From Paraglaciecola sp. MB-3u-78 (GTDB lineage: Bacteria > Pseudomonadota > Gammaproteobacteria > Enterobacterales > Alteromonadaceae), in contig NZ_PJCF01000001.1 of assembly GCF_002835935.1 (NCBI RefSeq), positions 124,001 to 188,000 of the forward strand: a stretch of 64,000 bases of DNA, given 5' to 3'. The notes beneath the pieces are model-generated. The model saw only the letters and a program-made list of their open reading frames with translations, ran no database searches and was not told the origin of the DNA. Shown in pieces: positions 41,516-61,086 of this stretch. The translations under genes were made by a program, and so were the position numbers. Every line of letters starts with the position of its first letter. Positions within the stretch are counted from its first letter, which is position 1.

Positions 41516-42229
41516 CTAATCGTTACTGCTTAAACCTTGGTTCAACATGTTAATCAACTGCTGCACATTCATCAAGGCACACATTTTCTTTTTAACCATG
41601 CCAGATAACCATGAACGACTACCTTCGACATTTCGCCATTTCACTTCATCTGGTAACAATATTTCAGTGGCAATTAAGCTTTCACAGCCTAACCCCCAAC
41701 CACTTTCACCTAACACTATAAGATATTTATATTCTGTTGCTTCTGCCAGCTTTTCAGCAGATTTTTTAGGCATTATCCATTTGGCGGTATCGACCACGTT
41801 ATATTTTTCATCACGATGTAACAAAACGCCTTTAAACCAAGCAGGTTTACCAAATAGTGGATTGACACTTTCAATCTGGTGTATTCCACCTAACTCTGTC
41901 AATGCTACAGCCAAAGTCATACCGGCAACCTCAAACAGTAACACTTGAAATTCCCCTGCAGGAATAATAGGTTTAACCACTTTTGCTGGCGTTTTTACTT
42001 CTACTAGCTTTTTTTCGACCTGCAGCTCTAGAACTTTAGAAATCACTGGCACAGTTTCAACAGGTTCTTCTGCTGGTTGAATAAAAGGCTCGGTTCTTGG
42101 TTTAGGCGCGGTTTTTAACAACTGCTCAACAGACTGGCGTTGAGCATCTTCAATAATAGGTTCTTCTGTCAACAAGGCTGACATGTAATCTTCCATCACA
42201 TCTTCGTTAGCGAAGGGATTACTACTCAT
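41516..42229 (-). CDS. parP: ParP-like CheW-domain protein for polar array localisation
   Basis: 237 aa. An acidic N-terminus (NEDVMEDYMSALLTEE) and a Pro/Glu/Lys-rich linker to about 85 precede a C-terminal CheW-like domain (about 90-230). In Vibrio, ParP binds CheA and ParC to keep chemosensory arrays at the pole. The 4-nt overlap with the ParA-like gene and position between cheB/parC and cheW match that locus. Assignment is by domain and context. Confidence 0.8.
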   Translation of the reverse strand: MSSNPFANEDVMEDYMSALLTEEPIIEDAQRQSVEQLLKTAPKPRTEPFIQPAEEPVETVPVISKVLELQVEKKLVEVKTPAKVVKPIIPAGEFQVLLFEVAGMTLAVALTELGGIHQIESVNPLFGKPAWFKGVLLHRDEKYNVVDTAKWIMPKKSAEKLAEATEYKYLIVLGESGWGLGCESLIATEILLPDEVKWRNVEGSRSWLSGMVKKKMCALMNVQQLINMLNQGLSSND

Positions 42230-43017
42230 GTTTGTGTTTCCAATTTTTGTAAGTAACTCAGTAATTTAGCATAAGCGAAAACCCCTCGAGATTTCGGACA
42301 ATATACAGAAGGCGGACTTTGCGCCTGACTGGCATCTCTAAATCTTGTGTCAATTGGAATTAACCCAACCCAAACACCCTCTTTGTAAGTGCGAGTCAAG
42401 GTGCTATAGGCTTTAGTTGCTGCGTTGACACGTTTATCGTACATTGTCGGCACTATAGTATAAGCAAAAGTTTTGGCTAATGATTTTTGCATTATCTCCA
42501 TGGAGTGCATCATTCTATCCAAACCTTTTAAAGCTAAAAATTCGGTCTGCACTGGGATAACAACCCTGTCACAAGCTGCTAAAGCATTAATCATCAACAC
42601 TCCTAAAACAGGTGGACAATCAATAATAGCGTAGTCGAACTCATCACTAATGAGCTCCAAGGCTTGGCGCAAAATGAGTCCCATCCCACTTTTTGTACCT
42701 AACTTCCTGTCAAGAGTCGCTAAAGCCATTGTCGCTGGCAAAATAAATAAAGAGTCTAATTTTGTTGGGCATAAACAGTTTAAGACATCATCTTTAGTAA
42801 CAGACTTTCCAGCCATAAATATGTTGTATAAACTGGTAGATAATTCTTCTGAATCAACACCAAAATAATAACTTAATGAGGCTTGTGGATCGGTATCAAC
42901 TAATATCACTCGTTTTTCACATTGCGCCAACAAACCGCCAAGTGTAACAGTTGTGGTAGTTTTACCTACTCCACCTTTATGATTTGCGACCGTCCAAACT
43001 ACCACACCAATGACCAC
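42226..43017 (-). CDS. parC: ParC-like ParA/MinD ATPase of the chemotaxis operon
   Basis: About 260 aa ParA-type ATPase with deviant Walker A KGGVGKTTT, LVDTDPQASLSYYFG and YAIIDCPPVLGVL. In Vibrio the che-locus ParA homologue ParC recruits chemotaxis arrays to the cell pole. Not DNA topoisomerase IV subunit ParC, despite the symbol. Starts at GTG 43017, or at the GTG four codons later (43005), closer to the family start VVWTVANHKGG. Confidence 0.83.
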   Translation of the reverse strand: MVIGVVVWTVANHKGGVGKTTTTVTLGGLLAQCEKRVILVDTDPQASLSYYFGVDSEELSTSLYNIFMAGKSVTKDDVLNCLCPTKLDSLFILPATMALATLDRKLGTKSGMGLILRQALELISDEFDYAIIDCPPVLGVLMINALAACDRVVIPVQTEFLALKGLDRMMHSMEIMQKSLAKTFAYTIVPTMYDKRVNAATKAYSTLTRTYKEGVWVGLIPIDTRFRDASQAQSPPSVYCPKSRGVFAYAKLLSYLQKLETQT

Positions 43018-44282: not shown

Positions 44283-46409
44283 CTATGATTTTTTTGCGGC
44301 ATATCTTTTTAGTAAACCCGGCACATCTAATATCAGTGCAATCCCACCATCACTGGTTATAGTCGCTCCCGCCATACCCGGGGTACCTTGGAGAAGCTCA
44401 TCTAGAGGTTTAATGACAACTTCTTCTTGGCCAATAAGTGCGTCAACCACAAAACCAAGTTGTTTTGTACCAATTTGCACTACAACAACATGTCCTGTAG
44501 TTTTATCAATATTAACCTCTCCTCTTGCTAACCACTCTCCCAAATAAAATAATGGAATAGCTTTGGAGCGGACAATCATAGTTAACTGGCTATCAACGGT
44601 ATTGGTTTTTTGCATATCTAGGTTGATTATTTCATTCACAGACCCTAGTGGCAGAGCGAAAGTTTGTTCACCAATCACTATCATCAATGTCGGCAATATT
44701 GCCAAGGTCAATGGCACTTTAATCTCAAGTGTTGTACCAACACCCATCTTAGAATCAATATTGACGGATCCGTTCAACTGATTGATTTTGGTTTTTACCA
44801 CATCCATACCGACACCACGGCCTGATACTTCAGATATTTCGGTTTTAGTTGAAAAACCGGGTGCAAAAATCAAATTAAATGCTTCAACATCAGTCATTCT
44901 TGCGGCTGCATCAGCATCCATAACACCACGAGAAACAGCAATTTCCTTGAGTTTATCAGGGTCCATGCCTTTACCATCGTCGATAATACTCAATAGAATA
45001 TGGTCACCTTCTTGAGAAGCTGACAACTTAACTGTGCCCATAGTCGGTTTACCTGCAGCCTTCCTCTCTTCAGGCATTTCAATACCATGGTCAACGGAAT
45101 TTCGTACTAAATGCACTAAGGGATCGGCTAAAGCTTCAACCAAATTTTTATCTAAATCCGTTTCTTCACCTTCAAGTACAAGAGTAATTTCTTTTTTTAA
45201 TGTTCTAGCAAGGTCTCGTACAACCCGAGGAAAACGACCAAAGACTTTCTTAATGGGCTGCATACGCGTCTTCATCACCGCGCCTTGCAAGTCACCTGTT
45301 ACCACGTCTAAATTAGCAATGGTCTTAGCCATGCTTTCATCGTTTACATTATTACTAAGACTCAATAGCCGGTTTCTGACCAATACCAATTCGCCAACCA
45401 TATTCATAATCTGGTCTAGGCGTTTTGTGTCAACTCTTACCGTTGTTTCTGCTTGAGGAGCCGCCGCTTTTTTTTCTTCTTTTGGGGTCACTACAGATGA
45501 AGCTACTGCTACTTTATTAGGAGGAGTAACCACCTTAGGAGGAGTGTCAACGTTTTCAACTTCAGCTGGCTTAACGGCTAGTTTTGTTTCTTTAACAGTG
45601 GCTGGCTTTTCAGGCACGTCTTCAACAGGGCCTTTACCTTTGCCATGAAGTTGATCTAATAAGGCTTCAAATTCATCATCAGAAATATCGTCACCAGAGG
45701 CGCTTTGTTGAGGAACAACGGGATCCGCGGTTACCTTTTCAGTTTCAGCTTTCTCTTCGCCTTTAAACTGACCTTTACCATGTAACTGGTCAAGGAGCGC
45801 CTCGAATTCATCATCACTAATATCTTGATTATTTGAAGAGGTTTCATCTACCGCTGTTGTTTCCTTCGCAGCCGGTGCATTATTGCCATGCAACTCATCT
45901 AACAACGCTTCAAATTCATCTTCACTAAAATCACCAGAATCGCTTGCTACTTCATCATTAGTTGCGGTTTCATCAACTGCAGCTTTAGATTTATTTGCAG
46001 GGGCGGCTTCGTCGGCTGATTCTGGTTTACTGAGTCTGGTCAGTGTTTCAATAAGGCCCTTTTCAGCAGCGACCAGTGGGTCACCGGCTTTGACGAGATC
46101 GAACATTTGTACTACTTCATCAGTGGCTTGTAATATTACATCCATTAGTTCAGGCGTTAGGGTACGTTGACCATTACGCATTACATCAAAAACGTTTTCT
46201 GCGCCATGACAGATATCAACTAACTCGGTCAGTGATAAAAATCCAGCCCCCCCCTTAACGGTATGATAACCCCTAAAGATAGCATTAAGCAGATTCGAAT
46301 CTTCTGGATTATTTTCTAATTCGACGAGCTGTTCTTGTAATAACTCTAAGATCTCCCCGGCTTCAACCAGAAAGTCAGCTAGTATTTCCTCGTCAACATC
46401 AAAAGCCAT
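44283..46409 (-). CDS. cheA: chemotaxis histidine kinase CheA with three FliM-like linker motifs
   Basis: 708 aa. P1/HPt domain with phospho-acceptor H49 (GYHTVKGGAGF). A long linker from about 135 to 315 has no recognisable P2 domain, but carries three copies of S(E/D)DEFEALLD(E/Q)LHG at about residues 160-175, 196-212 and 240-259. P3 dimerisation begins near 320 (VDTKRLDQIMNMVGEL), followed by the ATPase P4 (NSVDHGIE; GRGVGMDVV) and the CheW-like P5. CheA phosphorylates CheY and CheB. The linker motifs resemble the CheY-binding N-terminus of FliM (SQDEIDALLHG). Confidence 0.94.
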   Translation of the reverse strand: MAFDVDEEILADFLVEAGEILELLQEQLVELENNPEDSNLLNAIFRGYHTVKGGAGFLSLTELVDICHGAENVFDVMRNGQRTLTPELMDVILQATDEVVQMFDLVKAGDPLVAAEKGLIETLTRLSKPESADEAAPANKSKAAVDETATNDEVASDSGDFSEDEFEALLDELHGNNAPAAKETTAVDETSSNNQDISDDEFEALLDQLHGKGQFKGEEKAETEKVTADPVVPQQSASGDDISDDEFEALLDQLHGKGKGPVEDVPEKPATVKETKLAVKPAEVENVDTPPKVVTPPNKVAVASSVVTPKEEKKAAAPQAETTVRVDTKRLDQIMNMVGELVLVRNRLLSLSNNVNDESMAKTIANLDVVTGDLQGAVMKTRMQPIKKVFGRFPRVVRDLARTLKKEITLVLEGEETDLDKNLVEALADPLVHLVRNSVDHGIEMPEERKAAGKPTMGTVKLSASQEGDHILLSIIDDGKGMDPDKLKEIAVSRGVMDADAAARMTDVEAFNLIFAPGFSTKTEISEVSGRGVGMDVVKTKINQLNGSVNIDSKMGVGTTLEIKVPLTLAILPTLMIVIGEQTFALPLGSVNEIINLDMQKTNTVDSQLTMIVRSKAIPLFYLGEWLARGEVNIDKTTGHVVVVQIGTKQLGFVVDALIGQEEVVIKPLDELLQGTPGMAGATITSDGGIALILDVPGLLKRYAAKKS

Positions 46410-46421
46410 ATTATAGCCTCC

Positions 46422-47186
46422 CTAAAATCCCAGACTCGAAAGCAAATCATCTACGTCGTCTTGATCCGACGCTACATCTTCTCTGCTGTCGGCATCCAAT
46501 ATTGGACCTTCAGCCTTAATTATATCGGCTTCATTCTCAGATTTGTTAAGCTTTTCAGCAACCTCGGCAGCATTTTCAGGTTCAACGCCGCCAAACATAG
46601 TGAGCATGTAGACTAAATTATCTTCAACTTCTTTAACTAACTCGATAACGCGCCTGATAACTTGGCCAGTTAAATCTTGATAACCTTGGGCCATTAATAC
46701 TTCAGTTAACAGGCCTGTCAATTTAGCAGAGTCATTACTACCATTGTTAAGAAAACTATCCACTTCTTTTACAAGTAGATTAAACTCTCCCAATTGCAAT
46801 TCTCGTGCAATCATTTTATTCCATTCAGGCATAATCTTAACGATCCCATCATGCAGTGTATCTGCGATGGGCATACAAGAATCGACCAAATCCATGGTTT
46901 TATTTGCCGCCTCTTCAGTTGCTTCTATGACATAATTAAGTCGTGTTTGAGCATCTGGAATATCCTCGTTAGCCATATTAACTATACGGGGGTCAAGTTG
47001 GAAATTATTCAATGAATCATGGAGTTGACGCGTCAATTTTCCCACTTCAGCGAATAACTCAACTGAAGTTTGAGCGCCTGAATATTCAAGTAATTCTTGA
47101 GCGCCTTGGTTATCCCCACTTTCTATTAATGTCACTAATTTTTTTGCGTCGACAAGAGAAATTGGCGCAGTATTCAAGGTTTTCAT
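46422..47186 (-). CDS. cheZ: CheY phosphatase CheZ
   Basis: 254 aa, mostly helical, with the phosphatase signature QGYQDLTGQVIRRVIELV (Asp/Gln catalytic pair) and a C-terminal CheY-binding tail (SDQDDVDDLLSSLGF). It removes phosphate from CheY-P. Between cheY and cheA. Confidence 0.94.
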   Translation of the reverse strand: MKTLNTAPISLVDAKKLVTLIESGDNQGAQELLEYSGAQTSVELFAEVGKLTRQLHDSLNNFQLDPRIVNMANEDIPDAQTRLNYVIEATEEAANKTMDLVDSCMPIADTLHDGIVKIMPEWNKMIARELQLGEFNLLVKEVDSFLNNGSNDSAKLTGLLTEVLMAQGYQDLTGQVIRRVIELVKEVEDNLVYMLTMFGGVEPENAAEVAEKLNKSENEADIIKAEGPILDADSREDVASDQDDVDDLLSSLGF

Positions 47187-47215: not shown

Positions 47216-47599
47216 TTAACCAAGTCGTTCGAAGATTTTTGTTAATTTCTCTTTTAATGTTGCTGCAGTAAAAGGTTTAATAACATACCCATTTACGCCA
47301 GCTTGCGCGGCAGCAATAATTTGTTCCTTTTTCGCTTCGGCAGTCACCATCAACACAGGAATATGTTTTAAATTAGCATCTGCGCGAATAGCTCTAAGTA
47401 AATCTATACCTTGCATGCCGGGCATGTTCCAGTCGGTTACCACAAAATCAAAATCACCTTGCTGCAACATAGGTAATGCAGTACTGCCATCGTCTGCTTC
47501 TTGTATATTTGCAAAGCCAAGATCTTTAAGTAAGTTCTTGATAATCCTTCGCATTGTTGAAAAGTCATCAACAACAAGGATCTTCATCTTTTTATCCAA
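47216..47599 (-). CDS. cheY: chemotaxis response regulator CheY
   Basis: 127 aa receiver domain: D10/D11 (VVDDFS), phospho-acceptor D56 (VVTDWNMPG), T86-type TAEA and K108 in VIKPF. It binds FliM to switch rotation. I choose the TTG at 47599: GGAGG lies exactly 5 nt upstream, and the result [18 protein letters not shown] matches related CheY starts; the ATG 12 nt later is too far from this site. Confidence 0.94.
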
Positions 47600-47655
47600 A
47601 ACCACCTCCGTTAGAGTTTAAACCCTTAGGTTAAAACCCAACTTTATTGCCATAA

Positions 47656-56787: not shown

Positions 56788-57846
56788 TTACCAATCATCT
56801 TCGAGGGTTTGCAATTCGGCGTCGCTATCAATTCTTCGACCACCTTTGGTTAATAGTTGCAGCTCAGACTTCACAGAAGTTGGGCGCGGAATTTTTTCAA
56901 TTATTTTAAGTGCCACATTATCTCGTGAACGTCCTAATTTGGCTCTAAAAGTCGGTAAATCTTCAATTAATACCGTAATATGTTCTGGCATGTCGATTGG
57001 GATGATATAACCGGGCTCTAGCTTCATGATATCTGCTAGTGTTAATTCCAGATCCATCATATGAGTAGATAAAGCCACTCTTACATCCAGCATTTCATCT
57101 CGTAGAGCCTTGCTCCAGCGTAAATCGGTGTCTTCTTTATCACTTTGTACACCCGCATCTAACAGCTCACGTATTGGTTCCAGCATTGAATAAGGAAGAG
57201 ATATATGGAAGTCACCTCCGCCACCGTCTAATTCTATGTGAAAAGAACTGATCACCACGACTTCTGTTGGGCTCACAATGTTGGCCATAGCTGGATTCAC
57301 TTCAGAGTCTAGATATTCGAATGACACATCCATAACGGGTGCCCAAGCCTCTTTATAATCTTCAAAGATAAGCTTCAATAACATCTGGATAATACGGCGC
57401 TCAGTTGGAGTAAATTCTCGCCCTTCAATTTTTGCATGGTAACGACCATCCCCACCAAAAAAATTATCGACCAAGATAAATACCAGTCTGGCTTCCATGG
57501 TAATCAGCCCAGTGCCTTTGAGTGGACGAAAGCGCACCATATTCAAACTTGTCGGTACAAACAAAGTGTGGATATACTCACCAAATTTAATCATTTGGAT
57601 ACCATTAATAGAGACTTCAGCAGAACGGCGCATCATATCAAATAAACTGACCCGCATATGCCGAGCAAACCGCTCGTTAACGATTTCAAGTGTTGGCATA
57701 CGCCCACGAACGATCCTGTCTTGAGATGAAAAGTCGTATTCCATTGCTGAGCCATCAGACTCACCACTGTCAACTTCTTCTTCCTCAACATCATCTACAC
57801 CATGCAATAGTGCATCAATCTCGTCTTGGGATAATAAATCGCTCAA
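56788..57846 (-). CDS. fliM: flagellar switch protein FliM
   Basis: 352 aa. The N-terminal CheY-binding peptide MSDLLSQDEIDALLHGVDD, a middle CheC-like domain and a C-terminal SPOA domain (about 260-340). It is the rotor protein that receives CheY-P. The N-terminal peptide is the model for the repeats seen in CheA here. Confidence 0.96.
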   Translation of the reverse strand: MSDLLSQDEIDALLHGVDDVEEEEVDSGESDGSAMEYDFSSQDRIVRGRMPTLEIVNERFARHMRVSLFDMMRRSAEVSINGIQMIKFGEYIHTLFVPTSLNMVRFRPLKGTGLITMEARLVFILVDNFFGGDGRYHAKIEGREFTPTERRIIQMLLKLIFEDYKEAWAPVMDVSFEYLDSEVNPAMANIVSPTEVVVISSFHIELDGGGGDFHISLPYSMLEPIRELLDAGVQSDKEDTDLRWSKALRDEMLDVRVALSTHMMDLELTLADIMKLEPGYIIPIDMPEHITVLIEDLPTFRAKLGRSRDNVALKIIEKIPRPTSVKSELQLLTKGGRRIDSDAELQTLEDDW

Positions 57847-58518: not shown

Positions 58519-61086
58519 TCACACAAAATAATCAATTCCACCGAGGGCTCCATTTATAATGTTTTGCTGCGCTAAAACTTGCTCAGTCACATCCATATCT
58601 TCACTATCCCCCATACCACGATCACCCTGTCTGGCAGATTCACCCTGCTCTTGCTGACCATCACTTTCTTGGCGTACCGAAGATTGGCCTAGTTCAATGC
58701 CTTTTTCAGCCAACATTTCTCTTAATCTTGGAGTCGCCGTGTCAACTGCATCTCGTGCTTGTTGTGACTGGACCACAAAATTCACTGTTGCAGACTCACC
58801 GGATACTGCGACTTTGACATGAACCGAACCCAATTCAGCAGGATCGAGTCGAATTTCAGCCACTAGGTTTTTAGTATTCACCATCCAGCGCACTTTTTCG
58901 GCTAACTGCTGATGCCCCTCAGGTTTAGCGATATTAATTGCCTTCTCAAACTTGGACTCAAACTGATTTAATTGAATTTGTTTGCTTTGCTCACCTTGGA
59001 TTTGAGCGGCATCTCTTAAAGTAGCGCTATAGACTTGATCATGTTGATGCTCGATGGCACGGTTTATTGTTTGGGCAAGATCTAACACTTTTGAAACGCT
59101 GTTGACCATCTGCTCTAAATTGATGGGGGCTTTAGCAACAACTCCGGTATCGGTTGTTTTTATTAACGCTTCTGACACCAATGTTTTCAAATCAATACTC
59201 GGCTCTCTGCCCTGAGATAGTTGATTCTTATACTCCTCAATACCCGACTTTAACGCGGAGATAAAATCCTTTGACGAAGATCCAACTGAACTACTGATTT
59301 CAGAAACCTTAGGAATAACGACTTGCTGAGCAATCTGTTCAGAGGTTATAGGTTCCTCAGAGTGTTTACTATCAAACACTCTCTGTGCAATATTCTCTAA
59401 TACTTTATCCAGCTTATTATCAGTCAAGTTTAATATATTTTTTATGTCGTTATTACTGCTCACTTTCTGAATTTTACTCGAAGATCCAACTGAACTACTG
59501 ATTTCAGAAACATTAGGAATAACGACTTGCTGAGCAATCTGGTCAGAGGTTATAGGTTCCTCAGAGTGTTTACTATCAAACACTCTCTGTGCAATATTCT
59601 CTAATACTTTATCCAGCTTATTATCAGTCAAGTTTAATATATTTTTTATGTCGTTATTACTGCTCACTTTCTGAATTTTACTCGAAGATCCAACTGAACT
59701 ACTGATTTCAGAAACATTAGGAATAACGACTTGCTGAGCAATCTGGTCAGAGGTTATAGGTTCCTCAGAGTGTTTACTATCAAACACTCTCTGTGCAATA
59801 TTCTCTAATACTTTATCCAGCTTATTATCAGTCAAGTTTAATATATTTTTTATGTCGTTATTACTGCTCACTTTCTGAATTTTACTCGGGTTAAGTAAAT
59901 TGCTAGTTGCAACTTGAGCCAATTGAGAATCTTGTTCAAGCAACTCATCTTGCTCGGCAACAGACACTATTTTTGTTAATAAAGATAATGCTTCAGCTTG
60001 TTGAGCTTGAGTTAGTTTATCTGGTGTATCAGGCAAAACGGGCTTAGCTAATGTAGCTGGCCCTTGGACAGGATTTTTTCCTATATCAGAGTCAACTAAT
60101 ACTAATAATGATCTCAGCAGAGCTTTGTTTTCAGCTAAGGTCAAGTCTACTTGCGCTTGCGAGTCTGATTCAACTTGCTGATTTGCTAATAACACATCTT
60201 TTTCAATAACCGGATCGATTGCTGTATTAAGTGTTTTTTGTTCGGAAGTATCTGTGCCACTTTTTTGACTGTTTATCTGCAGTTTACTGCTCAATTCTTG
60301 TAAAACGCCGGTTTTTTCTAACAGCAATTCAGCCACTTTTTGTTGGACATCCACATCTGCTAGCCCTTCTTCTGCATGGGTTAGAACTTCCCCTAGCGCT
60401 GCGTCGACAAGCATGGATATGTCCTGTGAGATTTCACTGTCTAATTTTAAATCAGCCTCAGACATCTCTATAGATTCAATGTCGATGTTTTTGTCTACCA
60501 AAAGTTGTTTGGTGGACCTCGCAATATCAGCCAACTTTTGATCGGCCAACTTTTGAACGGCCAACTTTTGCAAATCATCTACCAATGACAGCCATTCTTG
60601 GGTAACAATACTCGCTGATTCCACAGCAGACTCTGTATCATTCTGTTTTGAGGACAAAACCAACTGCAACTCTGCTTCTGTGTTGCCATCCTTTAGTTCA
60701 CCATTAAGGATATTTGCATCACTTTCACTGTCAACATTTTCCCCAGCATAAGGACCATCAGAAGCATGACCTTCATTGGCGGATTGCACAGCAGTATTGC
60801 CTTCTGACGAGCTTGATGTTTGTGCATCATGAGTTTTTATTTTGCTTTCTTTTACCACAGAAGAAGGCACCATTTCTGTTTCGTCAAGAGATTGTTGCAA
60901 GGCTTTTTTTCTTGGGGAGTGAGGCGGTGGAGACTCAGATGCACCAGCTAATGTATCAAGCGATGTTTGATCTTGTAATAACTTACCGAATTGCTCATTT
61001 GATTCAGAGCCTTTAAATGAGTTGGACTCTGCAGCGGTGGCAAAAGCGGCAACTTCTGATTTAGCTGTGGCAACATGTTGCATCAT
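58519..61086 (-). CDS. fliK: hook-length control protein FliK, enlarged by an internal triplication
   Basis: 855 aa, long for FliK. A disordered, acidic N-terminal region is rich in Gln, Ser and Lys; the C-terminal T3S4/Flg_hook domain (about 720-820) holds LDPAELGSVHVKVAVSGE and VQSQQARDAVDTATPRLREM. Between them lie three 68-residue tandem repeats (about residues 400-604). FliK is the molecular ruler that tells FlhB to stop hook export. Two ATGs in a row at the start. A sigma-54 promoter candidate is 145-160 nt upstream. Confidence 0.92.
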   Translation of the reverse strand: MMQHVATAKSEVAAFATAAESNSFKGSESNEQFGKLLQDQTSLDTLAGASESPPPHSPRKKALQQSLDETEMVPSSVVKESKIKTHDAQTSSSSEGNTAVQSANEGHASDGPYAGENVDSESDANILNGELKDGNTEAELQLVLSSKQNDTESAVESASIVTQEWLSLVDDLQKLAVQKLADQKLADIARSTKQLLVDKNIDIESIEMSEADLKLDSEISQDISMLVDAALGEVLTHAEEGLADVDVQQKVAELLLEKTGVLQELSSKLQINSQKSGTDTSEQKTLNTAIDPVIEKDVLLANQQVESDSQAQVDLTLAENKALLRSLLVLVDSDIGKNPVQGPATLAKPVLPDTPDKLTQAQQAEALSLLTKIVSVAEQDELLEQDSQLAQVATSNLLNPSKIQKVSSNNDIKNILNLTDNKLDKVLENIAQRVFDSKHSEEPITSDQIAQQVVIPNVSEISSSVGSSSKIQKVSSNNDIKNILNLTDNKLDKVLENIAQRVFDSKHSEEPITSDQIAQQVVIPNVSEISSSVGSSSKIQKVSSNNDIKNILNLTDNKLDKVLENIAQRVFDSKHSEEPITSEQIAQQVVIPKVSEISSSVGSSSKDFISALKSGIEEYKNQLSQGREPSIDLKTLVSEALIKTTDTGVVAKAPINLEQMVNSVSKVLDLAQTINRAIEHQHDQVYSATLRDAAQIQGEQSKQIQLNQFESKFEKAINIAKPEGHQQLAEKVRWMVNTKNLVAEIRLDPAELGSVHVKVAVSGESATVNFVVQSQQARDAVDTATPRLREMLAEKGIELGQSSVRQESDGQQEQGESARQGDRGMGDSEDMDVTEQVLAQQNIINGALGGIDYFV
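59281..59888 (-). repeat. three tandem 204-bp repeats in fliK
   Basis: Unit starts at 59281, 59485 and 59689, spaced exactly 204 bp (68 codons). Copies at 59485 and 59689 are identical over about 200 bp; the copy at 59281 differs by two bases (Asn to Lys, Asp to Glu). In frame throughout. Near-identity points to recent duplication or ongoing homogenisation. Confidence 0.95.

Follow-up and report, generated by a model that had tools for sequence, protein, structure and literature searches.

The cheA locus and the P1–P3 linker

The window, as we call the whole 64,000-nucleotide stretch of DNA that was analysed, carries a chemotaxis locus on its minus strand with the gene order cheY, cheZ, cheA, cheB, parC, parP and cheW (Table 1). 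Between its P1 and P3 domains, the CheA protein has a linker with three copies of the motif [IF]S[DE]DEFEALLD[QE]LHG, starting at residues 161, 197 and 242. The original prediction had placed three FliM-like motifs at about residues 160–260 of CheA and had named MSDLLSQDEIDALLHG as the FliM N-terminus and QDDVDDLLSSLGF as the CheZ tail, and the motifs and both peptides were found as claimed. The N-terminal stretch of FliM, LLSQDEIDALLHG, is the known CheY-P peptide. A FliM peptide chain is present in structure entry 4iga and E. coli CheZ in entry 1kmi, and the E. coli CheZ tail is called a CheY-binding peptide in the passages cited here from PMC12270135. Elsewhere in the window, an ORF of 855 aa (58519–61086, minus strand), named FliK-like from its position, contains three near-identical tandem repeats of about 70 residues each, starting SSSKIQKVSSNNDIKNILNL.

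Table 1. Positions of the chemotaxis genes, CheA domains and motif copies in the window.
Feature	Position	Strand	Remarks
cheA, 708 aa	44283..46409	minus	F6-like, assigned from gene order and similarity
P1 (Hpt) domain, residues 8–100	46110..46388	minus	Pfam PF01627; AlphaFold pLDDT mostly 95–98
P1–P3 linker, residues 130–320	45450..46022	minus	Predicted disordered, without P2 fold
Motif copy 1, FSEDEFEALLDELHG, residues 161–175	45885..45929	minus	Predicted helix 163–174
Motif copy 2, ISDDEFEALLDQLHG, residues 197–211	45777..45821	minus	Predicted helix 199–210
Motif copy 3, ISDDEFEALLDQLHG, residues 242–256	45642..45686	minus	Predicted helix 244–255
P3 dimerisation domain, residues 322–381	45267..45446	minus	Pfam PF02895
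P4 ATPase domain, residues 429–568	44706..45125	minus	Pfam PF02518
P5 CheW-like domain, residues 575–702	44304..44687	minus	Pfam PF01584
cheY	47216..47605	minus	Proposed partner
cheZ	46422..47186	minus	Tail QDDVDDLLSSLGF at 46425–46463, known second CheY peptide
fliM	56788..57846	minus	N-terminal LLSQDEIDALLHG at 57799–57837
parC-like ParA ATPase gene	42226..43017	minus	
parP-like gene	41516..42229	minus	CheW-like C-terminal domain; candidate alternative partner

The repeats were also seen at the DNA level without translation: with one copy taken as the reference, the other two had identities of 72 and 80% to it over 50 bases. Copies 2 and 3 were identical in all 15 residues although 14 of their 45 bases differed, every change being synonymous, so they do not stem from a recent duplication and selection at the protein level has maintained the copies. 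When the motif profile was run over the 6.48 Mb genome, it found exactly the three CheA sites, and the next best matches had E values of 0.88 and 5.3.

No P2 domain was recognisable between P1 and P3. An HMM search for P2 in the linker gave no match, with no Pfam P2 or CheY-binding hit in the window's CheA at E ≤ 1, and Pfam P2 was found in none of the 22 F6-like CheA proteins scanned at E ≤ 0.1. The same models were also blank in 20 of 20 F7-type CheA proteins, although in most of these a P2-like block is visible by eye, and the silence of Pfam was thus rejected as sufficient proof that P2 is absent. As controls, Pfam P2 was matched in all six Thermotoga-type CheA proteins and the CheY-binding model in E. 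coli CheA. In the AlphaFold prediction for residues 1–335 of CheA from 27 sequences, P1 had a pLDDT of mostly 95–98, the linker outside the motifs had ten-residue means of 42–64, and the only helices in the linker coincided with the three motifs. The model had no strands in the linker, and nothing like a folded alpha/beta domain separated P1 from P3. A Foldseek comparison with solved structures returned P1 and other four-helix bundles as the best matches; the top row, 2lp4, includes P2, yet it superposed with an rmsd of 12.8 Å and a query TM-score that was the same as for P1 alone. In the corresponding control, AlphaFold with six Thermotoga-type CheA sequences built an alpha/beta P2 with a pLDDT of 80–91, and Foldseek on this model gave 1u0s, a P2–CheY complex, as the best match.

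When the profiles of the F6 linker and of the P2-like block of F7-type CheA were compared, no match resulted. The control comparison of that block with E. coli P2 likewise gave none, so neither the first comparison nor that between the F6 linker and E. coli P2 was given weight. Neither the linker nor the motif profile found anything related among the sequences of solved structures, and the F7 P2-like profile did not recover P2 from the solved structures. Weak Pfam matches to SHOCT, GemA and EF-hand were taken as chance. From the Pfam searches and the AlphaFold model, we conclude that F6-like CheA has no P2 domain. More than half of all CheA proteins are without P2 according to the sections cited of Berry et al. 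2023 (PMC10782961), who remark in section 12 that the dispensability of P2 is maybe unsurprising. A study of P. putida assigns a CheY-binding domain to its CheA by Pfam, and the cited parts of that paper contain no test of this CheA region with CheY (PMC11978298).

Distribution of the motif and its relation to ParC and ParP

The search covered 184 genomes from the class to which the window belongs. At E 1e-60, 115 of these gave a match, and the CheA loci used here were hand-picked among the matches listed. The F6-like set consisted of 72 CheA rows including the window, each with more than 400 bits to the window's CheA, from 71 genomes (L070 and L135 are one gene), and 29 less similar CheA proteins served as the comparison set. 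Copies were counted by profile score, and a crude regular expression was set aside because it missed copies written DAEF. By this profile, 68 of the 72 F6-like rows from hand-picked loci had one to four copies each. L127 and L129 are split cheA genes with the motif copies in the other half, while L131, in which the linker is absent, and L068, in which the copies are degenerate, were both below the motif score. The motif was absent from 28 of the 29 less similar CheA proteins, with L077 as the exception.

A second set comprised the best 80 of 594 loci and overlapped with the first at two places (L236/L112 and L240/L108). Among these best 80, 42 of the 43 CheA proteins above 500 bits had one to four copies, and the only one without the motif, L285, is a fragment starting after the linker. 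Below 500 bits, again among the best 80 of 594 loci, the motif was found in 2 of 37, from Acidithiobacillus (L263) and Hydrocarboniphaga (L269). The remaining 35 distant CheA proteins do without it and several of them are P2-less, so the motif is not obligatory for a CheA that lacks P2. Motif-bearing genera included Alteromonas, Glaciecola, Moritella, Shewanella, Vibrio, Photobacterium, Pseudomonas, Marinobacter and Dyella, among others. The motif was also surveyed in 397 genomes drawn from the phylum. At E 0.05, a match was present in 76 of them; 73 belonged to the window's class, and the three outside it were all marginal.

The motif was also largely confined to CheA at the protein level. 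In the 4430 ORFs of the first locus set and the window, no protein other than CheA scored above 10.3 bits, and among the F6-like CheA proteins that have a linker the minimum with the same profile was 14.0 bits. One ORF other than CheA exceeded the motif threshold in the best 80 of 594 loci, with 18.4 bits (L225, 9596–10162). It sits after parC, has the N-terminus ALDDYFEALLDDLGD and is apparently ParP. The N-termini of ParP often read YLDALL, and their profile was not significantly like the motif (233/3000) or FliM (375/3000). We conclude that the motif is a feature of the F6-like CheA class, as defined by gene order and similarity, and is not specific to this genome.

The passages cited from PMC7534058 and PMC5706961 locate the LID, the ParP-binding segment of CheA, between P2 and P3 and report it only alongside ParC and ParP. 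The dependence of the motif on these proteins was examined in 72 genomes, namely the 71 with an F6-like CheA and the genome of L077. ParC scored at least 304 bits in 62 of the 72 genomes; of the other ten, eight were without a match at E 1e-60, whereas the best in the remaining two was a ParA-level match of 206–208 bits. At the loci themselves, ParC scored at least 170 bits in 50 of the 71 F6-like cases. Of the ten genomes in which ParC was not found, G161 had ParP with 98.8 bits. In the other nine (seven unmatched by ParC at E 1e-60 and two with the ParA-level scores of 206–208 bits), ParP was either not matched or scored at most 33.7 bits, which is the level of a generic CheW. These nine genomes (G172, G008, G001, G024, G154, G152, G020, G137 and G023) come from seven families and are 91–100% complete. 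The ParP profile is incomplete, as 10 of the 62 ParC genomes also gave no match or CheW-level scores, and the case for genomes lacking both proteins therefore rests mainly on ParC.

The motif was kept in all nine, with 28.2 to 54.2 bits in eight and 14.0 bits, in degenerate form, in L068. The numbers of above-threshold copies in the nine were 0, 1, 1, 2, 2, 2, 2, 3 and 4, slightly below those of the others. In L049, the LHG end alone was lost and ITDDEFEALL was intact. In L057, L054, L129 and L067, parC and parP were missing between cheB and cheW, and in three of these four loci the position is occupied by two motor-like genes. The motif was also weaker in the nine, with a median score of 37.1 bits compared to 52.0 in the 61 others (p 0.005, kinship ignored), and it remained lower by 9.2 bits after allowing for CheA divergence (t −4.1, kinship again ignored). 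Both comparisons leave out L131, which has no linker, and L135, which is the same gene as L070, and the divergence-adjusted one also leaves out the window; for L127 and L129, the two split genes, the linker half was used, and in the adjusted comparison their CheA bits were entered by hand.

Likeness to the FliM and CheZ peptides and the CheY docking face

FliM N-termini were collected from 49 of 50 loci and CheZ tails from 64 loci, and two out-of-register tails were dropped from the CheZ profile. The motif scored 23.7 against the FliM profile, a value that was reached in 7 of 5000 column permutations. Among 519 stretches of the CheA alignment, none reached 23.7 against FliM, and the best stretch outside the linker scored 13.5. 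The FliM and CheZ peptides bind the same site on CheY, and their profiles scored 27.1 against each other (1/5000 permutations). The motif scored 13.4 against the CheZ profile (259/5000) and other parts of CheA up to 14.0; judged from these alignments, a likeness of the motif to the CheZ peptide is not convincing. The two share an acidic helix with a hydrophobic residue, an acid, any residue, Leu, Leu and a further Leu three positions on, but the CheZ peptide is at the C-terminus and mostly ends in LGF.

Compared to FliM, the motif aligns over 12 columns, with LSQDEIDALL in FliM and ITDDEFEALL in CheA. FliM has a single copy at its N-terminus, whereas CheA has Phe in place of Ile and an added D-x-LHG end. 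An LSQ-D/E-EIDALL-like sequence is thus present in the motif profile, and a helix is present in the AlphaFold prediction. For the single copies, the likeness was weaker when set against the background. The copies of the window scored 15.7 against a FliM core profile, which was reached by 21 of 941,933 sequence windows of other ORFs, and several of these 21 were FliM and CheZ themselves. Over 74 F6-like CheA ORFs, the median number of background windows scoring as high was 61; with a 13-column profile, 112 background windows were as high as the copies of the window. Moreover, 1 of the 29 control CheA proteins had a FliM-core match better than that of the window's CheA. By this measure, single copies appear to be only moderately FliM-like. 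Among the literature matches listed, which covered few subscription journals, there was no recognisable report of FliM-like peptides in CheA, and the sections cited of Berry et al. 2023 do not mention FliM (PMC10782961). One single-contig genome with an F6-like CheA, ParC and ParP (G031, locus L105) had no FliM match at E 1e-20.

Repeats of other kinds were observed in other CheA linkers. A second CheA in the window's own genome (contig 67; L080, 8061–10004) has a triple linker repeat, GFGLFE, DFGLVE and GFGFFE, and no P2-like block was seen in it by eye. In five loci from Helicobacter and Sulfuricurvum (L258, L259, L260, L268 and L294), the linkers have one or two stretches resembling DYxxMSxEEVEAEIERLL and, again by eye, no P2-like block; these Campylobacterota repeats were weakly FliM-like at most (222/5000 permutations). 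The linkers of L264, L277, L280 and L292, from Gallionella, Aromatoleum and other Betaproteobacteria, share DWxAL[HY], which was not FliM-like when compared with the FliM profile (502/5000). Those of L261 and L271, from Campylobacterales and Aquificota, share a stretch like EEVLEELILLPPEERPQELIEELDKLM.

The docking face of the window's CheY was identical to that of E. coli CheY at 17 of 21 positions, which we chose from the known complexes, compared to 88 of 128 overall. In F6-type CheY, Q94 was found in 101 of 104 sequences, V103 in 103 and R92 in 85 (a few duplicates included), and positions 94 and 103 differ from E. coli CheY. In the passages cited from Ortega et al. 2020, CheY residues 92, 94 and 103 face P2 and differ between the CheY of CheA-F6 and that of CheA-F7 (PMC7184735). 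If CheA-F6 is without P2, the face formed by these residues may meet something else in CheA-F6.

Possible functions of the linker repeats

The reading that we favour, at about even confidence, is that the repeats serve as a multivalent FliM-like docking site for CheY in place of P2, possibly shared with ParP. The linker would then be disordered and carry, in one to four copies, a short amphipathic helix of the type [IFM][ST][DE]xEF[DE]xLLDxLHG, a mimic of the peptide with which FliM binds CheY. These helices would each dock on CheY, and perhaps on CheB too, at the alpha4-beta5-alpha5 face and would raise the local concentration of CheY near phospho-P1, such that several weak sites would do the work of one folded domain. 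Like P2 (PF07194, PF09078), the motif lies between P1 and P3, where it is proposed to dock CheY for phosphotransfer; P2 is a folded alpha/beta domain and usually single, whereas the motif consists of predicted helices on a disordered chain in one to four copies. In the motor, the FliM peptide prefers CheY-P, and a combination of weak affinity and several copies could be one possible answer to how a FliM-like peptide would suit a kinase whose substrate is unphosphorylated CheY. The binding of CheY by the helices, its strength and its effect on phosphotransfer are proposed properties. Recruitment of CheY by FliM-like peptides was one of two readings in the original prediction, and it gained support from the absence of P2, from the score against FliM, which 4993 of 5000 permutations failed to reach, and from the conserved CheY face.

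The other reading was that the repeats are the ParP-binding segment described for Vibrio CheA. If they were the LID and served polar localisation only, their position would fit, since the LID lies in the same linker (PMC7534058, PMC5706961, in the passages cited) and the Vibrio CheA of L223 has three motif copies (best 80 of 594 loci). The high ParC scores in most of the genomes and loci and the weaker motif where ParC and ParP were both not found also agree with it, and the 10 ParC genomes that the ParP profile missed leave room for a diverged ParP in the nine. However, the motif, which was what we tested rather than the boundaries of the LID, is present where neither protein was found: across seven families, eight of the nine genomes have one to four copies and one has a degenerate form, and in four loci the two genes are missing between cheB and cheW. 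ParP is therefore unlikely to be the only keeper of the motif, and we consider it unlikely that ParP alone explains it. The part of this reading that gained some support is a role for ParP, as the motif is more diverged in the nine genomes and the LID is placed in the same linker (PMC7534058, in the passages cited). The greater divergence is not predicted by a role in CheY binding only, and a weaker motif without ParC and ParP is what a partial role of ParP would give. In a firmer version of such sharing, CheY (or CheB) and ParP would both bind the repeats, and several copies would hold both at once. This would explain both the persistence without ParP and the stronger conservation with it, and 55 of the 61 other CheA proteins have two or three copies, but the copy number in the nine genomes is just slightly lower and both bindings are hypothetical; we regard this version as rather unlikely.

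A different explanation is that the helices have some other conserved binding partner, or pack against P4 or P5 of CheA itself, for example to hold P1, and that they resemble FliM through convergence towards an amphipathic helix of a generic, acidic kind. The moderate likeness of the single copies, the D-x-LHG end, which has no counterpart in FliM, and the different linker repeats of other P2-less CheA classes would all be compatible with this. Against it, the order of the columns matters for the score against FliM (7/5000 permutations), which is not expected from composition alone, and we hold this explanation to be improbable.

Under the favoured reading of FliM-like CheY docking, a wider statement can be made tentatively, as something possible though short of probable. 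In F6-type CheA of Vibrio, Shewanella, Pseudomonas, Alteromonas and their relatives, P2 would have been replaced by a series of helices that imitate FliM. The kinase, the phosphatase and the motor would then share a single peptide code and vie for the same face of CheY, and other P2-less classes, as in Campylobacterota and Betaproteobacteria, may have evolved different linker peptides to this end. If F6 CheA does use FliM-like peptides to dock CheY, a large group of the P2-less CheA proteins has a docking device that is invisible to domain searches, and how array, phosphatase and motor compete for CheY would be directly testable by short peptides.
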